From positions 1-64,000 of IMG/VR virus record IMGVR_UViG_3300019776_000165: 64,000 nt of DNA; one strand, given 5' to 3'. The notes under the pieces were generated by a model. That model did not search any database and had not been told where the DNA came from. It worked only from the letters and a program-made list of their open reading frames with translations. This DNA comes from a virus. This document shows positions 16,452 to 32,685 of the stretch, piece after piece (position 1 is the stretch's first letter; the number at the start of each line of letters is the position of its first letter). Made by a program: the position numbers and the translations under genes.

Positions 16452-16464
16452 AACAACTCCTTAT

Positions 16465-19330: not shown

Positions 19331-19343
19331 TTGTTTGCCTTGG
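19331..19343 (-). repeat. 13-nt intergenic repeat, copy 2
   Basis: CCAAGGCAAACAA on the minus strand, between promoter-like repeat A and the gene starting at 19316. Confidence 0.75.
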
Positions 19344-19350
19344 CTACACC

Positions 19351-19388
19351 CTTTAGCCCCCAGTCAGGAACTATCAGGTAAAGTTAGT
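19351..19388 (-). promoter_or_regulatory. Leftward promoter-like repeat A
   Basis: The minus strand reads ACTAACTTTACCTGATAGT, then TGGGGGCTAAAG about ten bases on. The same block occurs at 22857, 25372 and 29121, always in a gap upstream of leftward genes. GATAGT could be a -10 element; no -35 is conserved, so an activator site or alternative recognition is possible. Confidence 0.65.
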
Positions 19389-22847: not shown

Positions 22848-22856
22848 TGTTGCACC

Positions 22857-22894
22857 CTTTAGCCCCCACTTAGGGACTATCAGGTAAACTTAGT
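22857..22894 (-). promoter_or_regulatory. Leftward promoter-like repeat B
   Basis: The minus strand reads ACTAAGTTTACCTGATAGT then AAGTGGGGGCTAAGG. It differs from copy A by one base in the 19-base core and lacks one T in the tail. It heads the AAA-VWA operon. Confidence 0.65.
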
Positions 22895-25341: not shown

Positions 25342-25371
25342 GTTGCTCTCCTTCTTGGTTGGTGTTGCTTC

Positions 25372-25409
25372 CTTTAGCCCCCACTTGAGGACTATCAGGT
25401 AAAGTTAGT
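25372..25409 (-). promoter_or_regulatory. Leftward promoter-like repeat C
   Basis: The minus strand reads ACTAACTTTACCTGATAGT then AAGTGGGGGCTAAAG, 31 bases before the ssb start. In this copy only, TAGACA lies 18 bases before GATAGT and could act as a -35. Confidence 0.65.
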
Positions 25410-25417
25410 GTTGCTGT

Positions 25418-25669
25418 CTAGAAATGCTCTTTCATGTACCACTCTGAGCGGTTGGTGTCGAGCAGGGCTTCGAACTCTTCCTCCGAGGACACCCAATAGA
25501 AAACTGCATCGTCCACCTGCTCGGCTAGAGGGTTACCCTTCTCCAGAGCCTCGTAGAACTGGTCGTAGAGAGGCTTGTTGGGCAAGAATCCGATGTTGTA
25601 ATCTCCTCCCCACATTCCGTCTTGCCAGACGATAGTGCGTGGACGGAGTTGGTAGTGGTCGTACCACAT
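25418..25669 (-). CDS. Hypothetical protein (83 aa)
   Basis: Internal ATG (MWYDHYQLRP) behind GGAAAGGAAGCACC is the start; the frame continues upstream through the tRNA-like element, which argues against the longer form. Aromatic and acidic (DDAVFYWVSSEEEFEALL). Unrecognised. Confidence 0.7.
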   Translation of the reverse strand: MWYDHYQLRPRTIVWQDGMWGGDYNIGFLPNKPLYDQFYEALEKGNPLAEQVDDAVFYWVSSEEEFEALLDTNRSEWYMKEHF

Positions 25670-25700
25670 GGTGCTTCCTTTCCTAGAGCGTTGTTGCTCG

Positions 25701-25741
25701 TGCCTGTCGGGGACTCGCACCCCGATGTCTGCTAGTCAGGC
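25701..25741 (-). ncRNA. tRNA acceptor/T-arm mimic hairpin, copy 1
   Basis: On the minus strand: outer stem GCCTG/CAGGC, 11 unpaired bases ACTAGCAGACA, inner stem TCGGGG/CCCCGA, 7-base loop TGCGAGT, then A. It looks like a tRNA with its anticodon arm removed. Downstream lies a small GAGC-AACAAC-GCTC hairpin. Copies 2 and 3 (27862, 28270) keep the shape with different stem bases. Confidence 0.6.
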
Positions 25742-25747
25742 TGTTAC

Positions 25748-25760
25748 TTGTTTGCCTTGG
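25748..25760 (-). repeat. 13-nt intergenic repeat, copy 4
   Basis: CCAAGGCAAACAA on the minus strand, just 5' of tRNA-mimic copy 1. Confidence 0.75.
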
Positions 25761-25786
25761 CCTCGCCTCGCCGTGTGTACCAGCGA

Positions 25787-26215
25787 CTAGAACGAAGGGT
25801 CACGGTAGTCAATGGCTTTGCCAACCAACAACCGAGCGTGGCTCGAACACCACCTGCCTCGCTTGTCCTGTCGGAAGTCGGTGACCGCTTCGCCTCGCTC
25901 AAACTTGAATCCCACGATTCGTACGAAGCCTTTCTTGTCCCCACTCTTGTACCGAATGAGGTACTCGACTGACCCAGCGTACGAGTCGCTACCAATGTAG
26001 AAGGTGGCTGGTGTACCAGCCTCTGCTTCTTCGACCACGAGGTCGTGTTGCAGTTGCTGGATACGGTCGTTCATGTCCCGCAACTTACGGTACTCTTCGT
26101 GGTTGAACTTGTCCCCCACGCTGGCTCGTTGGTGCAACTCGTTGTCCAAACGAGTGACCTCGGCTTCGAGGTCTGCTACCTGCTGTCGCAGGGTGGTTGA
26201 TGAATCAGTTACCAT
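25787..26215 (-). CDS. Hypothetical coiled-coil protein (142 aa)
   Basis: ATG behind AGGAAGGACACACC. Residues 5-65 form a coiled coil (TLRQQVADLEAEVTRLDNEL), followed by a compact beta domain (EYLIRYKSGDKKGFVRIVGF) with a basic end. Unrecognised. Confidence 0.72.
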   Translation of the reverse strand: MVTDSSTTLRQQVADLEAEVTRLDNELHQRASVGDKFNHEEYRKLRDMNDRIQQLQHDLVVEEAEAGTPATFYIGSDSYAGSVEYLIRYKSGDKKGFVRIVGFKFERGEAVTDFRQDKRGRWCSSHARLLVGKAIDYRDPSF

Positions 26216-26227
26216 GGTGTGTCCTTC

Positions 26228-26458
26228 CTAGTTGGCGGTGGCTTCGAGGTACTTCCAGTTACGCTTCTCAATGGCTCGTGCATTGTAGACACCGCTCATG
26301 TCACCACAGCACTTCGAGCCATAGGGGCAGGCTGAGTAGCGGTCACGCAACAACCGAGGGTGGTGCTTCTTACCCTTGCGGTTCTTGTAGTTGGTGTAGC
26401 CGTCCTCGTTCAAGCCGAACTGTACCTCGGCTGGCTTGTCCTTGTAGGTGTTGCTCAT
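26228..26458 (-). CDS. Basic Cys-containing protein (76 aa)
   Basis: ATG behind AAGGAGAGATAC. Basic centre (YKNRKGKKHHPRLLRDRY) and a CPYGSKCCGDM cluster; zinc and nucleic-acid binding are plausible. Unrecognised. Confidence 0.68.
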   Translation of the reverse strand: MSNTYKDKPAEVQFGLNEDGYTNYKNRKGKKHHPRLLRDRYSACPYGSKCCGDMSGVYNARAIEKRNWKYLEATAN

Positions 26459-26468
26459 GTATCTCTCC

Positions 26469-26702
26469 TTAGTCGGTGGTGCTTCGTCCGAAGGTGGTGC
26501 TTACGCTGGCATAGCCAGACAGGTCGTACTCGTAGGTGTCCCACACTACGAAGCCCTGTGGTATGTGGCTTCGGCAGTAGTGACCTGCCCAGTCCCCACT
26601 ACCTTTGCCTCCAGCGTAGACCGTGGCTGGTATCGTGCAAGGGTGACCGTCATGCTGTGTCTCGCATGACTTCACCTCGTCCTTGATGATGATGTGTCCC
26701 AT
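26469..26702 (-). CDS. Hypothetical protein (77 aa)
   Basis: ATG behind AGGAGGACAAC. C-x8-C and a later HYCRSH give a possible Cys/His metal site (KSCETQHDGHPC ... GHYCRSH). Similar CxxH...C...CxxH arrangements mark small zinc proteins. Unrecognised. Confidence 0.68.
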   Translation of the reverse strand: MGHIIIKDEVKSCETQHDGHPCTIPATVYAGGKGSGDWAGHYCRSHIPQGFVVWDTYEYDLSGYASVSTTFGRSTTD

Positions 26703-26711
26703 GTTGTCCTC

Positions 26712-27020
26712 CTATAGGTAACGGTCGGGAATGTGGTCTTCGTGTCCCTGCTCTTCAGCACCCTCTTCAAGCGAGGCTAGGAACTTGCCGTGGTCACGAA
26801 TCAACTTGCCGAACCTTGCTAGTGCCTTGCCGTACGAGGTGTACTCCTTCGGCTCTTGTCCACCCCATGAGTAGACTCGGTCGTAAGGGTCAAGGTCGTT
26901 GGCTGTGTACTTCTCGACAGACCAGCGTGGCTTGCCGTCGTTGTAGTACTGCCCCGACTTCCACGACAACTCGATGATAGTCGGGCTTTCAGGGTCACCT
27001 AGAAACAGGCGTTCGTTCAT
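26712..27020 (-). CDS. Hypothetical protein (102 aa)
   Basis: TAATG start. Beta-rich N-terminus, aromatic (YYNDGKPRWSVEKYTANDLD), then a basic helix (KALARFGKLIRDHGKFLASL). Unrecognised. Confidence 0.7.
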   Translation of the reverse strand: MNERLFLGDPESPTIIELSWKSGQYYNDGKPRWSVEKYTANDLDPYDRVYSWGGQEPKEYTSYGKALARFGKLIRDHGKFLASLEEGAEEQGHEDHIPDRYL

Positions 27021-27391
27021 TACTTACCTCCGTTGTTGAGTGAACGCTGGTTGTCTTCCAGCAGGTTGGTGTAGAACCGCTTCAACCATTGGGTCTTGGT
27101 CTCGCTTGAGACATTGGTTGAGTACCCCACACGAGCCTTGATGTCGGCCAAGGTGTAGGGGTAACGCTTGACGGTGTTGGTGGCTTGGTCAAGCCCTGAG
27201 AGTACTGCTCCTCTTGTGCCTTCCCAGAGACTGATTCGGGTGAACACATCGGCAACATTCTCTTCGGTGATACGACCGACTCCAACTGCCATGAGCAACC
27301 AGCAGAGGTTCACGGTCTTGCTCTTCTCCAACTCGTTGGAGTGTAGAGCGTCTAGGTTGGCTACCTTGGTAGCGTTCCAGTCAAGCGACAT
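27020..27391 (-). CDS. Hypothetical helical protein (123 aa)
   Basis: ATG behind AAGGAAGGACAAGCCC. Helical, starting MSLDWNATKV; NLCWLLMAVGVGRITEENV and FTRISLWEG suggest an all-alpha domain. I recall similar unnamed proteins in actinophages. Function unknown. Confidence 0.72.
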   Translation of the reverse strand: MSLDWNATKVANLDALHSNELEKSKTVNLCWLLMAVGVGRITEENVADVFTRISLWEGTRGAVLSGLDQATNTVKRYPYTLADIKARVGYSTNVSSETKTQWLKRFYTNLLEDNQRSLNNGGK

Positions 27392-27494
27392 GGGCTTGTC
27401 CTTCCTTCGTTAGGCACTCAAGGCATTGACCGAGGAGTGCATGGTGTGTACTGACTTGGTTGTGGCAGAGGTCGCAGGTTATCTCGTACCCCAT
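27381..27494 (-). CDS. Zinc-ribbon microprotein (37 aa)
   Basis: ATG in a TAATG junction and an 11-base overlap with the next gene. CDLCHNQ and CLEC pairs form a compact zinc ribbon. Its 3' end also carries the next gene's Shine-Dalgarno. Confidence 0.6.
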   Translation of the reverse strand: MGYEITCDLCHNQVSTHHALLGQCLECLTKEGQAHVA

Positions 27495-27820
27495 TAGGCG
27501 TTCGCTCCCTGCTTGGCTTTGTGGCAGTCGGAGCAACTCAGGTACTCCCAGCCGAACTCGGCACAGCGGTACACCAGTCCGTCTATCTCCACTTCGTCTC
27601 CGACAGACAGAGCGGTGTGGGTGCGGTCGGCAGGCAGGACTGGCTCGATGATGTCCCAGATGTTGCCCTCGTACCAGTTGGTCTGCTTGAAGAGGTCTTC
27701 GAGCAGGTACTTGTCCGAGTAGTCCTCGTACCAGAGAGAGATAGAGGCTTCGGCGTTCTTGTAGCCGAACTCCTTGGCTAGGTCGGTGGCTACCCAGCGA
27801 ATGACGATGTCGTGCTTCAT
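27494..27820 (-). CDS. Hypothetical protein (108 aa)
   Basis: ATG behind GGGAGCAAGTC. Acidic N-terminal half (WYEDYSDKYLLEDLFKQTNW), C-terminal beta part with GDEVEIDGLVYRC and CSDC, a possible half zinc site. Unrecognised. Confidence 0.7.
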   Translation of the reverse strand: MKHDIVIRWVATDLAKEFGYKNAEASISLWYEDYSDKYLLEDLFKQTNWYEGNIWDIIEPVLPADRTHTALSVGDEVEIDGLVYRCAEFGWEYLSCSDCHKAKQGANA

Positions 27821-27861
27821 GACTTGCTCCCTTCGAGCGGTTTGGGTGAGTGTGTTACTCG

Positions 27862-27902
27862 TGCCAGCCGAGGACTCGAACCTCGGTGTCTGCCAGTCTG
27901 GC
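27862..27902 (-). ncRNA. tRNA acceptor/T-arm mimic hairpin, copy 2
   Basis: On the minus strand: outer stem GCCAG/CTGGC, 11 unpaired bases ACTGGCAGACA, inner stem CCGAGG/CCTCGG, canonical T-loop TTCGAGT, then A. It begins 7 bases after the stop of the gene at 27910. The following small hairpin is GAGT-AACAC-ACTC, with a compensatory change relative to copies 1 and 3. Confidence 0.62.
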
Positions 27903-27909
27903 GGTGGTG

Positions 27910-28227
27910 CTACTTGGCGGTCTTCTTGGCAGGCTTCTTGGTTGCAGGCTTCTTGGTAACGCCAGCCTCCTTGTAGACCTTGAACGCCAGAGGCTTCTTG
28001 TCACCGAGGGTCTTGCGAAGCACGGTGAGCGTTGCCTTCAACTGCTTGCGGACATCGGCCGAGGTGTAGGAGACCTCGTACTCGAACTCGTCAGGGTCTT
28101 TCTCGTACGACAGAGCCTGCTTCAACTTGGTGTCCTGCTGGAGAGCCAACTTGCGGACAGCCTCGGTCAGGATAGCCACCTCGTTCACGGCGAGGGTGAC
28201 TGACTCGGTGGTGGTCGTTGCGGTCAT
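27910..28227 (-). CDS. Basic-tailed protein (105 aa)
   Basis: ATG behind AGGAATCTCACC. A helical body (ILTEAVRKLALQQDTKLKQA, ADVRKQLKATLTVLRKTLG) is followed by a histone-H1-like tail (KKPATKKPAKKTAK). Likely to bind nucleic acid. Unrecognised family. Confidence 0.72.
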   Translation of the reverse strand: MTATTTTESVTLAVNEVAILTEAVRKLALQQDTKLKQALSYEKDPDEFEYEVSYTSADVRKQLKATLTVLRKTLGDKKPLAFKVYKEAGVTKKPATKKPAKKTAK

Positions 28228-28269
28228 GGTGAGATTCCTTCTTGTTGGTGGATAGAGCGGTGTTGCTCG

Positions 28270-28311
28270 TGCCTCGGACAGGAGTCGAACCTGTCCTGCG
28301 ACCTTCGAGGC
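28270..28311 (-). ncRNA. tRNA acceptor/T-arm mimic hairpin, copy 3
   Basis: On the minus strand: outer stem GCCTCG/CGAGGC, ten unpaired bases AAGGTCGCAG, inner stem GACAGG/CCTGTC, T-loop TTCGACT, then A. The 6+6 base pairs equal the 12-bp acceptor/T helix of a tRNA. It begins 9 bases after the stop of the gene at 28321. The small hairpin GAGC-AACACC-GCTC follows. Confidence 0.62.
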
Positions 28312-28320
28312 GGTTGGTGA

Positions 28321-28569
28321 CTAGGCGAAGTACAGAGTCACAGCGGAGTCGAGCAGAGTGGTGAGTCGGTCGGACTCAGCCTGCTCAATGTCCTCGCTGG
28401 TGGCGTACGACCAGTTGGTGTTACGGCGGAACTTGGCGAACTGAGCCTCGATTCGCTCGACTGCCTCAGCCAGAGCCTCGGCGTTGATAGCGATGGGCTT
28501 GGCACGGTAGTCGGCTTCACGCTGAATCTCAGCGGTCAAGACATCGGCGATGAACTCGGTGGTGAACAT
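28321..28569 (-). CDS. Hypothetical helical protein (82 aa)
   Basis: ATG behind GAGGAGCAACC; an in-frame extension to 28665 runs into the tRNA-like RNA and is rejected. Helical (FIADVLTAEIQREADYRAK, EALAEAVERIEAQFAKF). Unrecognised. Confidence 0.7.
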   Translation of the reverse strand: MFTTEFIADVLTAEIQREADYRAKPIAINAEALAEAVERIEAQFAKFRRNTNWSYATSEDIEQAESDRLTTLLDSAVTLYFA

Positions 28570-28590: not shown

Positions 28591-28634
28591 AAAACGCCCC
28601 AACTTCTGGGGGTTACAGGGGGCGTAGCCCCCTG
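28591..28634 (-). terminator. Tandem hairpins between tRNA-like RNA and gene
   Basis: On the minus strand, CAGGGGGC-TAC-GCCCCCTG (28634-28616) is followed by CCCC-AGAAGTT-GGGG and TTTT (28611-28591). The second looks like an intrinsic terminator or attenuator between the RNA at 28639-28741 and the gene at 28569. Confidence 0.5.
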
Positions 28635-28638
28635 CTAG

Positions 28639-28741
28639 TGCCATGGACAGGATTCGAACCTGCAACTATCCCTTGGGATAGAACCATTGTCATCGAGACT
28701 GGATACTCGACCGACTACAACCAGAGGTTGTTTCGCATGGC
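28639..28741 (-). tRNA. Degenerate tRNA-Ser-like RNA (class II, CGA-like)
   Basis: The T arm is GCAGG-TTCGAAT-CCTGT and the long variable arm is CTATCCC-AA-GGGATAG. The acceptor GCCATGC/CCATGGC has one mismatch. CCAGT-CTCGATG-AC(AA)TGG is an anticodon arm with anticodon CGA but a two-base bulge, and position 37 is T. About 11 extra bases sit before the D arm. It may be a decayed tRNA-Ser or a tRNA-like RNA without decoding function. Confidence 0.45.
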
Positions 28742-29120
28742 TACCGAAGACTATTTATACTCCCGACACTCAGTTGGTTTTCGCCTGTCCCAAGCCCAAT
28801 GTTGGTGGGTGTTTTTGTCGTTTTTTGCGGAGCCGAAGCAACGCCACGATTACCAGTCGTGGAACGCCAGAGGGTTGGTTAGGTGACCGAGCCTGTTCGC
28901 AGTTTCGTTCGATTCGTCCGACCGTATAGGTCGTTGTCCTCCCCCGAAGTGCGGTGGAACGCAGGTGGTATCACCAAGCGAACGCCAGCCGTTTTTGGCT
29001 GTGTCCCTTTGCGGAGTCTGCTGTTGAGTTGTCAAACCGTTTCTGCCCCTCCCGAAGGGAGAAGCACCGAGGTGAATCGGGCTGGTGGAGTGACGGCTGG
29101 GGAGCGGTACTCACACCATT
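28742..29120. other. Non-coding stretch with orphan anticodon-arm hairpin
   Basis: No convincing gene on either strand. The minus strand holds CCACGA-CTGGTAA-TCGTGG (28844-28862), which has the stem and 7-base loop of a tRNA anticodon arm (GGT) but no T arm next to it. There is also a TTCG hairpin near 29047-29065. The open frame at 28850-29035 lacks a Shine-Dalgarno. Confidence 0.4.
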
Positions 29121-29155
29121 CGACCCCCACCCCATGACTATCAGGTAAAGTTAGT
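29121..29155 (-). promoter_or_regulatory. Leftward promoter-like repeat D
   Basis: The minus strand reads ACTAACTTTACCTGATAGT, then CATGGGGTGGGGGTCG; the 19-base core equals copies A and C and the tail diverges. It is the outermost copy, 380 bases upstream of the tRNA-like RNA. Confidence 0.6.
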
Positions 29156-32489: not shown

Positions 32490-32540
32490 GCAAACAGAAT
32501 CTCGACGGAGAGTCTGGAGCATGGCTGAACGAAGCCCCTT

Positions 32541-32645
32541 GTCTAGATGGGGTGAGAAAGGCACACGGTTGGGATTAGCGTCCCCGCTCTTAGCGGAGCA
32601 CGGCTGTGGTAGGACTAAGGCGGTACTATAATGTGGTATCTAGAC
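32541..32645 (+). ncRNA. Possible structured RNA between two tRNAs
   Basis: GTCTAGAT (32541-32548) can pair with ATCTAGAC (32638-32645), enclosing a CCGCT-CTT-AGCGG hairpin and a TATAAT at 32627 that could instead be a promoter for tRNA-Thr. The open frame here overlaps tRNA-Asn and is not a gene. Confidence 0.35.
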
Positions 32646-32685
32646 TTCTCCTTGGTGGTAATAGACAACCCACCTGCTCACCTTT

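Follow-up and report, generated by a model that had tools for sequence, protein, structure and literature searches.

Intergenic tRNA-elbow mimics as candidate RNase P/RNase Z cutting marks in the operons of actinobacterial phages

Results

The stretch of DNA analyzed here, referred to as the window, is a 64-kb part of the IMG/VR viral record IMGVR_UViG_3300019776_000165, which is 93,561 bases long in full. Its minus strand carries three copies of a short element that resembles the acceptor/T half of a transfer RNA (tRNA) and lies between genes of one operon (Table 1). Each copy consists of an outer stem, an unpaired 5' spacer (11, 11 and 10 nt in copies 1, 2 and 3, respectively), an inner stem, a 7-nt T-loop and a discriminator base. 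An earlier inspection made without database searches (hereafter the sequence-only reading) had described these copies, and their places, their strand and all of their stems and loops were confirmed, with predicted folds that match the described shape; the small hairpin that it had noticed 3' of each copy was also found. As it had further stated, two of the copies begin 7-9 bases after a stop codon, the gaps being 7 nt for copy 2 and 9 nt for copy 3, and 45 nt for copy 1.

A structural descriptor, which consists of an outer plus inner stem of at least 11 bp, a spacer of 8-14 nt and a 7-nt T-loop (T.C.A), has exactly three matches in the window, namely the three copies, compared with a mean of 0.3 and a maximum of 2 matches in 40 dinucleotide-shuffled windows. 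The predicted folds of copies 1, 2 and 3 have z-scores of -3.4, -1.8 and -2.6, respectively, against dinucleotide shuffles. The three elements belong to a multi-copy RNA family, which was collected with a DNA pattern derived from the three copies, followed by a covariance search, a descriptor scan and further pattern scans, while all conclusions were drawn from the covariance model R2 and the descriptor only. The collection comprises 378 distinct sequences. Copies 1 and 2, which are themselves in the R2 model, score 62.7 and 66.4 bits, respectively, and copy 3, which is outside the model, scores 24.4 bits.

The descriptor matches show an 11-bp stack with many pair types, but since pairing is a condition of the descriptor, stem statistics on these matches are partly circular. 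For the 5-11-6 class, the way it was built makes stem pairing 100%, and the lack of T at position -1 is an artifact, because cases with T(-1)/A73 are assigned to the 6-11-6 class. Since this class is biased in both respects, the figures quoted here are those of sequences that were picked by the letters of their spacer and T-loop alone, with re-dealt 5' and 3' halves as the control. Three spacer types were distinguished: type A (ACYGGCAGACA with loop TTCGAGT), type B (AACGGTTTTCG with loop TTCGATT) and type C (ATGGTCGNAG with loop TTCGACT). All outer pairs are formed in 104/110 of the type A sequences (5 bp), 24/25 of type B (5 bp) and 60/64 of type C (6 bp), compared with 13.8, 7.0 and 8.3% of the respective re-dealt controls, and the free inner pairs are formed in 93-100% of these sets, compared with 5-14% after re-dealing. 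Hence both the description of the element as a T-arm/acceptor mimic and the claim that bases change while pairing is kept, which had been made on three copies, are strongly confirmed on hundreds of homologues.

The spacer and the T-loop are also joined by base pairing. Spacer position 9 and the last base of the T-loop form a standard pair in 198/198 type A elements, in which A-U (142), G-C (35), C-G (12), U-A (5), G-U (2) and U-G (2) all occur, and their mutual information is 1.09 bits, compared with 0.03 bits after permutation (maximum 0.11). Pairs that are not A-U number 56, and the search patterns could not have picked these out. Next to position 9, spacer C10 lies opposite loop G59 in type A, so that the two pairs form a 2-bp pseudoknot helix with T-loop positions 59-60. 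The equivalent in type C is AG/CU, where A-U (34/45) and G-C (32/45) are found most often. In addition to the T-loop, the type A elements possess the tRNA elbow contacts 18-55 and 19-56. G19/C56 is present in 198/198 elements and G18/U55 in 192/198, with a joint switch to A/G in four and G/C in the remaining two. The joint A18/G55 switches include copy 1 of the window (ACTAGCAGACA with TGCGAGT), and spacer A4 and loop G2 occur only together. Given these contacts, the RNA is best read as a natural minimal elbow, with an acceptor/T stack of 11-12 bp and a spacer in place of the D-loop. This structure, the stems together with the tRNA-elbow fold, is predicted from comparative sequence data and is very well supported by them. 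To the best of our knowledge, it is the smallest natural mimic of the tRNA elbow.

The covariation also bears on whether the elements could be tRNA genes in decay, remnants of attP or sites for DNA-binding proteins, such as stoperators. Their sequence is indeed tRNA-like, and short intergenic elements in one orientation resemble the stoperators of cluster A mycobacteriophages (PMC3029335). Stoperators, however, are 13-bp asymmetric protein sites, whereas the element is 40 nt long and is conserved by base pairing rather than as one fixed sequence. Substitutions that compensate each other, in the two stems and likewise in the spacer/loop pair, are constraints at the RNA level, and the outer stem is kept in 94-96% of the sequence-selected copies. 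Because of this covariation, tRNA remnants and DNA sites were rejected as highly improbable. The view of the sequence-only reading that the copies may be remnants of tRNAs is thus not supported: covariation maintains the two stems and the elbow contacts, together with an additional pairing of spacer and T-loop that is absent from ordinary tRNAs, and it does so in as many as 14 copies within one stretch. Two other known classes were excluded as well. The element is not an ordinary tRNA (RF00005), since it has no cloverleaf but only acceptor-like and T-like stems with a 10-11-nt spacer, and neither Rfam nor ARAGORN reports a match at the three copies. Nor is it a transcription terminator, as read from the sequence, since no T-run follows the stems.

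Members of the family are found in many phages. The large terminase of the window is nearest to those of the Streptomyces phages BRock, LuckySocke, Alone3, GiJojo and pSt2308 (49-51% identity), which makes an actinobacterial host likely, and a megablast search of the window against known phages gave no matches. Covarying homologues were found in Streptomyces, Mycobacterium and Gordonia phages and in metagenomic phages. Unrelated viral contigs carry multi-copy sets of 13 (L067), 7 (L024) and 8 (L042) elements; by blast, L067 is nearly identical to Mycobacterium phages of the Papyrus/Send513 group and L024 is phage Fowlmouth. Short similar stretches, mostly without an annotated feature, were also detected by blast in the Streptomyces phages Sujidade, Lika, phiCAM, Joe and Endor2, in Konstantine and Indlulamithi and in Gordonia phage Aleemily. 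In the fetched stretches of seven annotated phages, the descriptor identifies 61 sense-strand elements: 14 in Papyrus, 5 in phiHau3, 8 in Fowlmouth, 8 in Sujidade, 7 in Konstantine, 8 in Aleemily and 11 in Indlulamithi. Matches on bacterial chromosomes or scaffolds come from Nocardia, Amycolatopsis, Kribbella, Actinocatenispora, Hymenobacter, a Chitinophagaceae and a Gemmatimonadota bacterium and are probably prophages. Among 297 genomes from the class to which Amycolatopsis antarctica belongs, a match at E<=1e-5 is present in only four, one of them A. antarctica itself, which argues for a phage feature rather than a chromosomal or housekeeping RNA of the host. In A. antarctica, a single leader holds a tandem array of four mimics with a spacing of about 115 nt and with GGC-rich spacer repeats between them (L274, 6883-7269, minus strand). 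Rfam 15 holds no family for the element, as judged from scans of the window copies and four copy-rich phage loci, and a description of it was not found in the open-access full-text literature, subscription-only work being outside that search. The RNA family itself has a fair chance of being new in the eyes of specialists.

The elements lie on the sense strand at a regular place. Among 57 measured elements, a total that includes the three copies of the window besides elements of the seven annotated phages, the distance from the stop codon to the element is typically 8-10 nt, with a median of 9 nt (35/57 within 5-10 nt), and the median distance from the element to the next start codon is 43 nt (50/57 within 30-55 nt). 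Counted by hand, 54 of the 61 elements in the annotated phages are wholly in annotated gaps, and the remaining seven overlap an annotated open reading frame (ORF), most of them by a few nucleotides at a gene end or start. Annotated starts or small ORFs that overlap mimics at L084 5640 and 26974, L086 15840 and 14943 and L090 18981 are probably misannotations. The 28 nt from C74 onward fold with -9.2 kcal/mol, compared with -5.4 kcal/mol for shuffled sequences, and the control, 28 nt upstream of the element, with -6.3 kcal/mol, compared with -4.7 kcal/mol when shuffled. The sequences of this downstream hairpin differ, and its pairing mostly begins 0-3 nt past C74. A purine-rich ribosome-binding region follows 3' of the hairpin, and then the start codon.

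A place after a stop codon and ahead of the next ribosome-binding site would also suit a tRNA mimic that is directed at the ribosome or EF-Tu and acts on translation, through re-initiation at or recruitment to the next gene. We regard this as very unlikely, as the hairpin and an ordinary Shine-Dalgarno site intervene before the start codon and the element has no mimic of an anticodon. Trans-acting decoys or sponges were considered too: released or embedded, the mimics could occupy tRNA enzymes, or tRNA-directed defense nucleases or toxins that recognize tRNA by its acceptor/T half. Such a role would be in keeping with the presence of as many as 14 copies in a single phage stretch, with the four tandem copies in the leader of the Amycolatopsis prophage and with an elbow and acceptor end that are nearly complete although there is no anticodon. 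A decoy, however, needs no fixed place, whereas the elements keep a fixed distance both to the preceding stop codon and to the gene that comes next, with a hairpin and a ribosome-binding site on their downstream side, and decoys are therefore an unlikely explanation.

The ends of the element resemble those of tRNA genes. G1 is present in 99% of the 5-11-6 class and G1-C72 is kept, while in stem-confirmed type A elements R73 and C74 are each found in 97/98 and C75 in only 2/98. In 48 host tRNA genes sampled from two element-carrying genomes (Amycolatopsis and Actinocatenispora), C74 is present in 48/48 and the full CCA is encoded in 11/48. The mimics thus keep C74 without CCA and have the same 3' signature as those tRNA genes of such hosts that do not encode CCA. 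With their elbow covariation, their discriminator and no encoded CCA, the elements have the features expected of an RNase Z substrate. Compared with the features of a bacterial RNase P substrate (a stack of about 12 bp, G1-C72, R73, C74 and C75), the picture is mixed, as the stack is 11 or 12 bp long, G1, R73 and C74 are kept and C75 is not. These ends matter for a further possibility, in which the elements are uncut barriers in cis, whose pseudoknotted fold halts exonucleases (RNase J on the 5' side and PNPase on the 3' side) and stabilizes segments of the messenger RNA (mRNA) without endonucleolytic cleavage. A compact, G+C-rich pseudoknot between genes, with a second hairpin, would fit such a barrier, but the kept tRNA ends (G1-C72, R73 and C74 without CCA) and the T-loop/GG contacts would be left unexplained, and we consider it unlikely.

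A larger tRNA-like element of 102 nt at 28640-28741 heads the operon that contains the three copies; like the spacer/T-loop pairing, it goes beyond what the sequence-only reading had described. It is predicted to have a T-arm (GCAGG-TTCGAAT-CCTGT) and three further hairpins in between, followed by A73-C74-T, and its acceptor/T end (CATGGC-A-CT) is the same as in the mimics. Its score against the Rfam family of tRNA-Sec, RF01852, is 19.3 bits (E=2.1), below the gathering score of 47, and ARAGORN makes no call at this element. In Fowlmouth, expanded mimics of 64-66 nt have one extra hairpin within the spacer (L086 16868-16931 and 21034-21099), and one of them sits between genes, placed like the short ones. 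The mimics, the expanded mimics of Fowlmouth and the 102-nt element form a graded series.

Table 1. Elements, hairpins and neighboring genes in the window.
Feature	Position	Strand	Description
Copy 1	25701..25741	-	outer stem GCCTG/CAGGC, 5 bp; spacer ACTAGCAGACA; inner stem TCGGGG/CCCCGA, 6 bp; T-loop TGCGAGT; discriminator A; C74 = 25700
Copy 2	27862..27902	-	outer stem GCCAG/CTGGC; spacer ACTGGCAGACA; inner stem CCGAGG/CCTCGG; T-loop TTCGAGT; A73; C74 = 27861
Copy 3 (12-bp type)	28270..28311	-	outer stem GCCTCG/CGAGGC; spacer AAGGTCGCAG; inner stem GACAGG/CCTGTC; T-loop TTCGACT; A73; C74 = 28269
Hairpin GAGC..GCTC	25686..25699	-	directly 3' of copy 1
Hairpin GAGT..ACTC	27848..27860	-	directly 3' of copy 2
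Hairpin GAGC..GCTC	28255..28268	-	directly 3' of copy 3
Larger tRNA-like element	28639-28741	-	102 nt; outer stem GCCATG/CATGGC
Hairpin CAGGGGGC-tac-GCCCCCTG	28616..28634	-	strong; after the larger element; read from sequence
Gene between larger element and copy 3	28321..28569	-	no Pfam match
Gene between copy 3 and copy 2	27910..28227	-	Lys-rich C-terminus; no Pfam match
Gene 3' of copy 2	27494..27820	-	no Pfam match
Gene 3' of copy 1	25418..25669	-	no Pfam match

Other repeats are present on the minus strand of the window. A 20-nt repeat (GAGGCCAAGGCAAACAAGTA) occurs at 16462, 19328, 22213, 24115 and 25745, mostly in gaps, and one of its copies is just upstream of mimic copy 1. A second repeat (ACTAACTTTACCTGATAGTC...GGGGGCTAAAGG) is found at 19342-19388, 22848-22894, 25363-25409 and 29109-29155, with copies that are 70-89% alike and lie ahead of minus-strand genes; it is possibly a phage promoter or leader element. 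On the plus strand, a manA RNA (RF01745, 61.5 bits) is located at 32498-32684, between the genes for tRNA-Asn and tRNA-Thr.

Discussion

Structure and position are what was observed, and from them we infer a cut and its effect; we therefore favor the reading in which the elements are cutting marks for host RNase P and RNase Z in polycistronic phage mRNA, in the style of tRNA punctuation, and give it a probability of roughly 0.6. Host RNase P would cut before G1, host RNase Z after N73, or both, and the cuts would divide the operon mRNA where one gene gives way to the next. After such a cut, 1-4 nt would separate the new 5' end of the downstream message from the hairpin, whose start at this distance is consistent with a cut 3' of N73. 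Stem-loops at the 5' end are known to make mRNA resistant to RNase E and RNase J, and the hairpin, now 5'-terminal, would be expected to shield the new 5' end from decay by these enzymes. RNase P, RNase Z and the CCA-adding enzymes all gauge the distance between the elbow of a tRNA and its acceptor end. The first two clamp the elbow, and pre-tRNAs that lack CCA are processed by RNase Z (PMC4810234, PMC4919913). The RNA of E. coli RNase P cleaves hairpin model substrates made of acceptor and T-stem only 2- to 10-fold less well than pre-tRNA (PMC4975455). Of the three readings that the sequence-only reading had offered, punctuation by RNase P/RNase Z fits best, given the position between genes, the tRNA-like ends and the hairpin that would become 5'-terminal after the cut site.

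Several observations weigh against punctuation. The base at position -1 of stem-confirmed type A mimics is mostly A (68/98, with T in 4/98), unlike in the host tRNA genes, where C or T accounts for 75%. C75, which would be expected to pair with RNase P RNA as well, is not kept, and most elements have an 11-bp stack, compared with 12 bp in tRNA. In phiHau3 and a few others, a gap of 24-39 nt or more separates the element from the stop codon that precedes it, and the four copies of the Amycolatopsis prophage are in a single leader, not between genes.

Among phages, host nuclease sites between early genes have a precedent in T7, which has host RNase III sites in the intercistronic gaps between its early genes. 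This placement is common to both systems, but the T7 sites are long double-stranded hairpins without tRNA features. The C4/CI RNAs of phages P1, P7 and P4 are processed by host RNase P, but they are single antisense regulators and not repeated intercistronic marks. Structures of the turnip yellow mosaic virus (TYMV) type are single, 3'-terminal elements of RNA virus genomes and are aminoacylated. What such viral tRNA-like structures share with the phage element is mimicry of the elbow via a pseudoknot (PMC4810234). Minimal RNase P substrates of the pAT type likewise have an acceptor-T-stem stack with a T-loop and are cut by E. coli RNase P RNA (PMC4975455), but these are laboratory designs without a D-loop, whereas in the phage RNAs the elbow is rebuilt by an additional spacer that contains GG.

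In animal mitochondria, polycistronic RNA is split at the positions of tRNAs by RNase P and RNase Z (PMC8003010), where the marks are real, functional tRNAs, whereas those of the phages have no anticodon. The t-elements of plant mitochondria are cut by RNase P and RNase Z and are CCA-tailed but not aminoacylated (PMC11658184, PMC8003010), and they share with the phage elements a tRNA-like structure at mRNA ends and the lack of an encoded CCA. The phage elements differ from them in being 40 nt long, with only an acceptor/T stack and elbow, in their spacer/T-loop pseudoknot and in their arrangement in series between genes. Membership in the t-elements was rejected, since the elements are in phage DNA, have no homology to tRNA genes along their length and have a spacer and pseudoknot unlike those of a decayed tRNA. 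By analogy, mitochondrial tRNA punctuation and plant t-elements may be regarded as counterparts that work in a similar way.

We propose, at odds that we put a little better than even, that the elements constitute an undescribed family of structured RNAs through which actinobacterial phages, together with some from other phyla, draw on the tRNA maturation by RNase P/RNase Z of their hosts to cut early operon mRNA at gene borders. Each gene cassette would consist of an elbow mimic, a 5' cap-hairpin, a Shine-Dalgarno site and a reading frame, and the system would be the bacterial-virus counterpart of mitochondrial tRNA punctuation.

The element is widespread and unannotated, having been missed by annotation software. 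Because it is present in standard laboratory phages (phiHau3, Sujidade, Papyrus and Konstantine), its role is directly testable with existing strains. It also shows how little of a tRNA rebuilds the elbow, with 40 nt and neither a D-stem nor an anticodon arm, and the A18/G55 switches and the four-way swaps of the spacer/loop pair amount to a natural experiment on recognition by RNase P, RNase Z and CCA-adding enzyme. If the elements are cut by tRNA-processing enzymes, they would give phages a new way of shaping their mRNA and of exchanging early genes in the form of self-contained cassettes.

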